NCBI GenBank assembly: GCA_027532775.1
Contig: JAPZTO010000004.1
Span: 1-34,240 of the forward strand
DNA from: Beijerinckiaceae bacterium
GTDB lineage: Bacteria > Pseudomonadota > Alphaproteobacteria > Rhizobiales > Beijerinckiaceae
Length of the DNA: 34,240 nt
Reading direction: 5' to 3'
The position numbers were made by a program, and so were the translations under genes. Shown here in pieces: positions 2,773-3,124 of the stretch; position 1 is the stretch's first letter, and each line of letters begins with the position of its first letter. Under the pieces are notes generated by a model. The model was not told the origin of the DNA and ran no database searches. It saw only the letters and a program-made list of their open reading frames with translations.

Positions 2773-2849
2773 AGGGGAGTAGCTCAGCTGGTTAGAGTGG
2801 CGGTCTCCAAAACCGTAGGTCGTGGGTTCGAATCCCTCCTCCCCTGCCA
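2773..2849 (+). tRNA. trpT: tRNA-Trp (anticodon CCA)
   Basis: The 77-base gene folds as a cloverleaf. The acceptor stem is AGGGGAG (2773-2779) with CTCCCCT (2839-2845), followed by discriminator G and an encoded CCA (2847-2849). The anticodon loop CTCCAAA (2805-2811) gives anticodon CCA at 2807-2809. The T loop is TTCGAAT. In the T stem, the second pair (GTGGG with CCCTC) is a T-T mismatch where the E. coli tRNA has a wobble pair. The position next to tuf is the normal one for proteobacterial tRNA-Trp, but secE, usually close downstream, is 13.5 kb away. The 3' 26 bases recur twice just downstream in a tandem repeat. Confidence 0.97.
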
Positions 2850-3124
2850 TCCTTCCTCCGACGGAACATCGAACCCACGATGAGACCCTGATCGCCGGTT
2901 GGCCTTGGGCCAGAGGCGATCAGCAGAAGACCCGGGTTCGAATCCCTCCTCCCCTGCCATCCTTCCTCCGACGGAACATCGAACCCACGATGAGACCCTG
3001 ATCGCCGGTTGGCCTTTGGCCAGAGGCGATCAGCAAAAGACCCGGGTTCGAATCCCTCCTCCCCTGCCATCCTTCCTCCGACGGAACATCGAACCCACGA
3101 TGAGACCCTGATCGCCGGTTGGCC
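2824..3124. repeat. 110-bp tandem repeat built from the tRNA-Trp 3' end, 2.7 copies
   Basis: Units start at 2824, 2934 and 3044 with an exact 110-base period. Each unit opens with the 26 bases from the T arm to the encoded CCA of tRNA-Trp, then an identical 55-base stretch, then 29 bases. The 29-base part of units 1 and 2 differs at only two positions (2907/3017 and 2927/3037). Units 1 and 2 carry a hairpin: CTGATCGCC with GGCGATCAG (2888-2896 and 2915-2923; repeated at 2998-3033), with an inner TGGCC/GGCCA stem. Unit 3 stops at 3124, after the 5' arm. The first unit is part of the real tRNA gene. No integrase lies nearby. Site-specific recombination scars or unequal crossover are both possible. 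Confidence 0.93.

Follow-up and report, generated by a model that had tools for sequence, protein, structure and literature searches.

What stands behind the tRNA-Trp gene in the stretch of DNA analysed here (34,240 nucleotides, called the window throughout), and does the reiteration of the tRNA 3' end in it record past integrations, plain duplication or an element in its own right? The tandem array is real (2824-3124, period 110, 2.7 copies, 98% match, 0 indels, score 588 by TRF), and with it the last 26 nt of tRNA-Trp recur downstream of the gene: the 26-nt block (GGGTTCGA..GCCA) is exact at 2824-2849, which is the tRNA itself, at 2934-2959 and at 3044-3069. TRF and these exact blocks thus confirm what a first-pass annotation had said of the tRNA-Trp 3' end, namely that it lies in a 110-base tandem repeat. 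The locus is composed as follows.

2773..2849, + strand: tRNA-Trp (anticodon CCA), CCA end encoded (ARAGORN; Rfam, 67.6 bits)
2824..2933, + strand: unit 1, 110 bp, made of the tRNA's own T-arm to CCA, spacer, inverted T-arm, hairpin and linker (TRF, sequence comparison)
2869..2880, + strand: inverted copy of the own T-arm (TCGAACCCACGA), unit 1
2888..2923, + strand: bulged hairpin, unit 1, predicted to fold with a 9-bp outer and a 6-bp inner stem
2934..3043, + strand: unit 2, 110 bp, opening with T-arm-to-CCA copy 1 (2934-2959) (TRF, sequence comparison)
2979..2990, + strand: inverted T-arm, unit 2
2998..3033, + strand: bulged hairpin, unit 2, one loop base different
3044..3124, + strand: unit 3, partial, 81 bp, opening with T-arm-to-CCA copy 2 (3044-3069) and closing in the 5' half of the hairpin (TRF, sequence comparison)
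3089..3100, + strand: inverted T-arm, unit 3

A unit consists of an inverted T-arm of the resident tRNA, a bulged palindrome and the 3' end of that tRNA copied in direct orientation. The first-pass annotation had recognised the tandem repeat and the hairpin but overlooked the inverted part, TCGAACCCACGA, which is present in every unit, begins 19 nt after the CCA and is the exact reverse complement of 12 nt on the T-arm side of tRNA-Trp itself; when the trailer was shuffled 5000 times with dinucleotides preserved, 4 shuffles reached a 12-nt inverted match. Between units 1 and 2 there are two base differences, one in the hairpin loop (2907/3017) and one outside the hairpin (2926/3036), so that the earlier description of intact stems with a changed loop base holds for both hairpins. 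The 81-bp third unit is identical to units 1 and 2 over its length and retains the 5' half of the hairpin alone (from 3108), an array end also seen in three relatives (G013, G014, G015). In the predicted fold of 2850-2959 (z -2.64) the hairpin is enclosed by pairing of the inverted arm with the T-arm copy that follows. A simple scan of 2650-3300 showed nothing resembling a promoter or terminator.

Within the window genome (G000) this arrangement sets a few tRNAs apart. Inverted own matches of at least 11 nt occur in the trailers of three of 41 tRNAs (Trp, Gly-TCC and Lys-TTT, range 11-13 nt), and the same three trailers hold direct own matches of 12-26 nt; for the remaining 38, no own match in either orientation exceeds 9 nt. 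Gly-TCC likewise has a tandem array, with two units at one contig end (C10) and one at another (C3); it is apparently cut by the contig ends, and the two parts would belong together. The hairpin loop motif has five matches with 0-1 mismatch in this genome, all of them within the array at Trp or at the ends of the Gly array, and five with 2 mismatches, one behind tRNA-Lys and four elsewhere, the reversed control of the pattern giving the same counts. An exact 28-nt pattern of the unit had no match among the genome contigs searched, 74 nt of the trailer had none among phages by BLAST, and the locus matched 147 plasmid records, of which the 20 listed align to the tRNA part, 15-16% of the query.

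Across the genus (Rhabdaerophilum) the same plan recurs: tRNA, short spacer, inverted own T-arm, hairpin and direct copy of the own 3' end. A covariance model built from 10 units, which match it by construction, gave 30 matches above 50 bits in 13 of 17 genus genomes. ARAGORN places a tRNA ahead of 27 of these in the fetched stretch; the other three are displaced Trp ends (G002:C22, G008:C10) and a contig end (G000:C3). The 10 units yield a consensus fold with 21 pairs, four of which show changes on both sides that preserve pairing. Altogether, the plan follows tRNAs of six amino acids in the genus (Trp, Gly, Lys, Pro, Cys, Ser), the bearers being Trp, Gly, Lys-TTT, Pro-GGG, Pro-TGG, Pro-CGG, Cys and Ser-TGA, to which pattern search and weak matches add a Lys-CTT unit in G006. 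Separately, G003 has two tandem palindromes directly behind tRNA-Met (L128/L170), with neither inverted nor direct tRNA copies.

Are the units fitted to the particular tRNA they follow? In a catalogue of 32 loci with 15 distinct 12-nt T-side sequences, the own tRNA is matched at a mean of 5.63 of the six positions next to GAAC, compared with 4.24 (sd 0.28, maximum 5.28) when tRNA types are permuted, none of 20,000 permutations being as good, subject to a mild bias, as each catalogue trailer was anchored close to where it best matches its own tRNA. The catalogue leaves aside matches with no tRNA in the fetched stretch (L021, L024, L025, L117, L119, L120, L129, L130, L131), weak or odd cases (L132 and L172, arm 8/10; L170, arm absent; read by eye) and Trp trailers that are free of units, for example in G001 and G016. 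The direct copy is identical at 22 or more of 26 positions in 25 of the 32 loci. The 10-nt inverted arm of the first unit is perfect in 23 and imperfect in nine, counts to be read knowing that the model and pattern behind the catalogue contain GAACC and so favour intact inverted arms. It begins 14-23 nt past the CCA in 29 loci and 36, 38 and 58 nt past it in the other three. Among five Pro-TGG/Pro-CGG loci with a unit, all four that have a copy read GGGTTC in it versus AGGTTC in the tRNA, and the copied part therefore seems to begin at the universal GGTTC; at many loci the direct repeat extends into the spacer. The target-derived parts of the unit, then, match the tRNA behind which they stand.

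Outside the genus, the covariance model found weak matches (E up to 0.001; best 30.4 bits) in 34 genomes of an order sample of 297, three of which belong to the genus, and of four such genomes inspected (G041, G262, G103, G023) G041 alone has a unit. This genome, from another family of the order, has three 93-bp units with an unrelated hairpin behind tRNA-Ser-GCT and a further unit at Ser-TGA. In G343, which belongs to the same family as the window genome but to another genus, tRNA-Gly-GCC is followed by the same plan in other sequence, and G125 offers a weak case. A pattern survey of the order returned 15 places in 12 of 397 genomes, resolved by an ARAGORN check into six neighbouring tRNA genes and nine units (three in G000, two in G041, one each in G005, G006, G343 and, weakly, G125); across the phylum, 13 places in 10 of 398 genomes comprise seven neighbouring tRNA genes and six units already counted, with a pattern strict enough to miss units with drifted arms or E. 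coli spacing. We found no description of inverted arms matching their own tRNA in the open-access literature searched.

The closest known relation in plan is found in enterobacteria. Repeats at E. coli tyrT have been known for decades and have, to our knowledge, no agreed purpose. In MG1655 tyrV has three 178-bp repeats behind it, which carry 19 nt copied from the tRNA 3' end; behind tyrT there is one such copy. Like the window units, these are tandem units directly behind a tRNA gene, repeat the 3' end of the tRNA they follow and hold inverted pieces of the same tRNA inside (GGGGAAGGAT at tyrV, GAACCTTCGA at tyrT), although the tyrT inverted match taken alone is weak, being equalled by 45 of 5000 shuffles. 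The two kinds differ in unit length (178 bp in E. coli, 110 bp in the window), in the start of the copy (AATCC versus GGTTC), in the distance of the inverted arm from the CCA (58-68 nt versus 19 nt) and in their hairpins, which are unrelated; the RF00391 covariance model found no RtT match in the window array up to E 5, with four matches at the E. coli locus as positive control. Behind tyrV, RttR is annotated as an RNA from +8 to +178, up to the CCA of the copy.

RF00391 also matched all of the eight genomes we took as enterobacterial (family label f92), in six of them above the cut-off. From 30 fetched loci we compared 58 tRNA-trailer pairs, for which only long own matches are shown, many of these being neighbouring tRNA genes. 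RtT units stand at Tyr, Pro-TGG, Lys-TTT, Ser-GGA and Arg-ACG tRNAs. Some of those at Tyr, Pro-TGG, Lys-TTT and Ser-GGA have both inverted and direct own-matching parts, the inverted ones being GAACCTTCGA (Tyr), GAACCTCCGA (Pro), GAACCTGC or GATTCGAACCTGC (Lys) and GAACCCCCGA (Ser). An inverted T-stem is missing from the Arg units and from several of the Lys ones, where any inverted piece is shorter. Ahead of the unit at Pro and Lys lies a hairpin with a T run that, read by eye, resembles a terminator. A passage of PMC4986893 places RNAs of the RtT family next to Asn and Lys tRNAs in Actinobacillus. We also observed six tandem RtT matches, with a period of about 167 bp, behind two tRNA-Tyr genes in G744 (L226).

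We favour, with a probability of roughly 0.6, the view that the array belongs with the E. coli tyrT/RtT repeats as a tRNA-anchored array whose units match their target, and that it arose by copying of the target around a palindrome and then by unequal exchange. As a founding step, an event at the tRNA gene would have copied the target, the T-arm inverted and the 3' end direct, around a short REP-like palindrome, either by template switching at the T-arm dyad or through a mobile-element process. Once two direct copies existed, unequal exchange or slippage could gain and lose 110-bp units. Lying in the 3' trailer of the tRNA, the units might further affect folding or processing of the pre-tRNA, as the inverted T-arm could pair with its own T-arm or with the next T-arm copy. 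The matching of units to their own tRNA, the direct copies in 25 of 32 loci, the recurrence in G041 and G343, the plan in E. coli, the variation in copy number, the palindromes away from tRNAs and the inverted arms that persist beside diverging spacers (see below) all speak for this account; imperfect arms, differing hairpin types behind one tRNA, RtT units without an inverted T-stem and the negative search for Y1/RAYT genes in the 17 genus genomes (see below) speak against it.

A different origin, serial att scars of tyrosine integrases at tRNA-Trp, had been put forward in the first-pass annotation. In its favour, tRNA 3' ends are usual targets of integrases, and tRNA-Trp does serve as a target in relatives: in G013 an island that includes a PF00589 integrase stands at the gene, and Trp 3' ends displaced together with their trailers occur in four genomes (G002, G008, G013, G014). 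An attachment site shares with the array a direct repeat equal to the tRNA 3' end. Att scars, however, consist of direct repeats only and would not yield an inverted own T-arm and a hairpin behind tRNAs of six amino acids, and none of the eight PF00589 matches in the window genome lies on the window contig (C14). Next to the array is an accessory block of about 12 kb (window 3238-15360: GNAT, molybdate transport, BKACE, TRAP transporter, HPPD-like), which four of the compared genomes have in the interval from tRNA-Trp to the SecE/nusG region; between tRNA-Trp and the membrane-protein, SecE-like and nusG genes, it runs from the GNAT to the HPPD-like gene in G000, G015, G016 and, as far as fetched, G014. 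Trp units number 2.7 in G000 and about 1.7 in G015, are split by an island in G014 and include no intact one in G016. Stretches of 19.5 kb around tRNA-Trp of G005, G006, G009 and G011 lack the block (one 26%-identity match in G009); in G006 a membrane-protein gene directly follows tRNA-Trp (SecE named by eye). Of the block, only relatives of the mod genes adjoin tRNA-Trp in G007 (10.8-kb contig), and the GNAT gene is the sole one seen in G013. Comparison of relatives thus bears out part of what the first-pass annotation anticipated, copy number being variable and an integrase island standing at tRNA-Trp in G013, but block presence and array copy number are not tied. With no integrase on the contig, a block untied to copy number and units at many tRNAs, we regard att scars as highly improbable and a tyrT/RtT-like array as the better description.

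The array may also place usable att-like copies of the tRNA end beside the real gene. One relative suggests that a T-arm copy may serve as an attachment site: the G014 island has a complete unit on its upstream side and a half unit on its downstream side, and it probably entered through a T-arm copy; its left junction is a deletion into what reads by eye as integrase-like sequence.

Plain tandem duplication by slippage, involving neither element nor function, would fit units that are 98% identical and variable in number. To our minds it is quite improbable as the origin, for it accounts for array expansion only, and the plan with its own-matching inverted arm recurs at the tRNAs of six amino acids (Trp, Gly, Lys, Pro, Cys, Ser) and in further genera and families. 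The first-pass annotation had held that the same 2.7 copies in all relatives would argue for inert slippage; Trp copy number instead differs between relatives, including those that share neighbours.

Another reading sees the unit as a functional pre-tRNA element, in which selection keeps the inverted T-arm and hairpin, the trailer pairs with the T-arm to control folding, processing or release of a small CCA-ended RNA (like RttR), and direct copies are secondary. The annotation of RttR as an RNA behind tyrV agrees with this, as does the perfect 10-nt inverted arm in six of seven loci with a decayed or lost direct copy, albeit that our detection favours intact arms. Moreover, in four genomes with the same gene downstream (G000, G013, G014, G015) the inverted arm is identical in six of six pairs while the spacer is 17-67% identical, an ungapped comparison in which indels may depress identity. 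Such persistence amid spacer divergence suggests constraint and hints, at the level of sequence, at a pre-tRNA role; re-formation of the arm would be the alternative. The Gly hairpin type differs between G002 and G000, and because different hairpin types behind the same tRNA point to independent origins, persistence need not mean selection. Besides, nine of the 32 arms are imperfect, the far (second) half unit of G014 has decayed to GAACCTCCGA (8/10), no intact unit is present behind tRNA-Trp in G016, and enterobacterial Pro and Lys units stand behind an apparent terminator. In folds predicted for the stage before the copy is transcribed, 18 of 32 loci pair the inverted arm with its own T-arm at a mean probability of 0.8 or more, and 10 stay below 0.2; as such pairing would wreck the tRNA and cells fold the tRNA as it is made, which thermodynamic folds ignore, these values are a hint only. 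Overall, selection on pre-tRNA function as the primary explanation strikes us as rather unlikely.

The palindrome around which the target would have been copied invites comparison with REP and Rickettsia palindromic elements, with which it shares short bulged palindromes, some in frame inside genes. In relatives, palindromes of the family occur away from tRNAs in frame in valS (G004) and mutL (G005) and between tuf and rpsJ in G009 and G011 (gene names by eye). Repeats resembling rtT also lie away from tRNAs, upstream of other enterobacterial genes, according to a passage in PMC2965389. This is as expected of a dispersed element. REP/BIME sequences, though, have many dispersed copies, unlike the window genome with few, whose 0-1-mismatch matches are confined to tRNA arrays; a GATCGCC..GGCGATC scan of that genome gave 17 palindromic places, the two array hairpins among them, and a genome-wide REP reading was rejected. 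REP/BIME also have a partner Y1/RAYT transposase, for which a search of the 17 genus genomes was negative (control search positive in 5 of 14 genomes), so that we reject RAYT mobilisation. GTAG- and CGTC-tagged repeats are described in PMC3733652; CGTC is internal in one hairpin type here (read by eye only).

Our findings place the array in a kind previously known from tyrT/RtT, with units tailored to the tRNA they follow. It is conceivable, if doubtful, that they represent a general class in at least Alpha- and Gammaproteobacteria, of tRNA-anchored units whose arms are copied from or kept complementary to the resident tRNA, be they target-templated palindromic elements or pre-tRNA trailer switches, with E. 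coli RtT as the first-seen member. A second lineage with unrelated sequence, yet the same plan and own matching at many tRNAs, turns an oddity into a comparable set, and it can now be asked if the units owe their form to copying of the target, to selection on pre-tRNA folding, or to the two together.

Some further observations concern the window and its relatives. At L120 (valS of G004) and L131 (mutL of G005), around 1501-1536, the palindrome encodes nearly the same peptide, PRSPDEHSPEGIG and PRSPGELRPEGIG, respectively (gene names by eye), and in this resembles palindromes of Rickettsia that code for protein. Two minus-strand open frames in the window (1957-2850 and 2792-3070; GEEGFEPTTYG.. 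and GRRDSNPG..) are antisense to the tRNA and array and may be possible spurious-protein annotations. Finally, 3.2 copies of a 30-bp unit that resembles an intrinsic terminator (GC stem, TTTTTT) lie behind an rplA-like gene at window positions 18551-18645.
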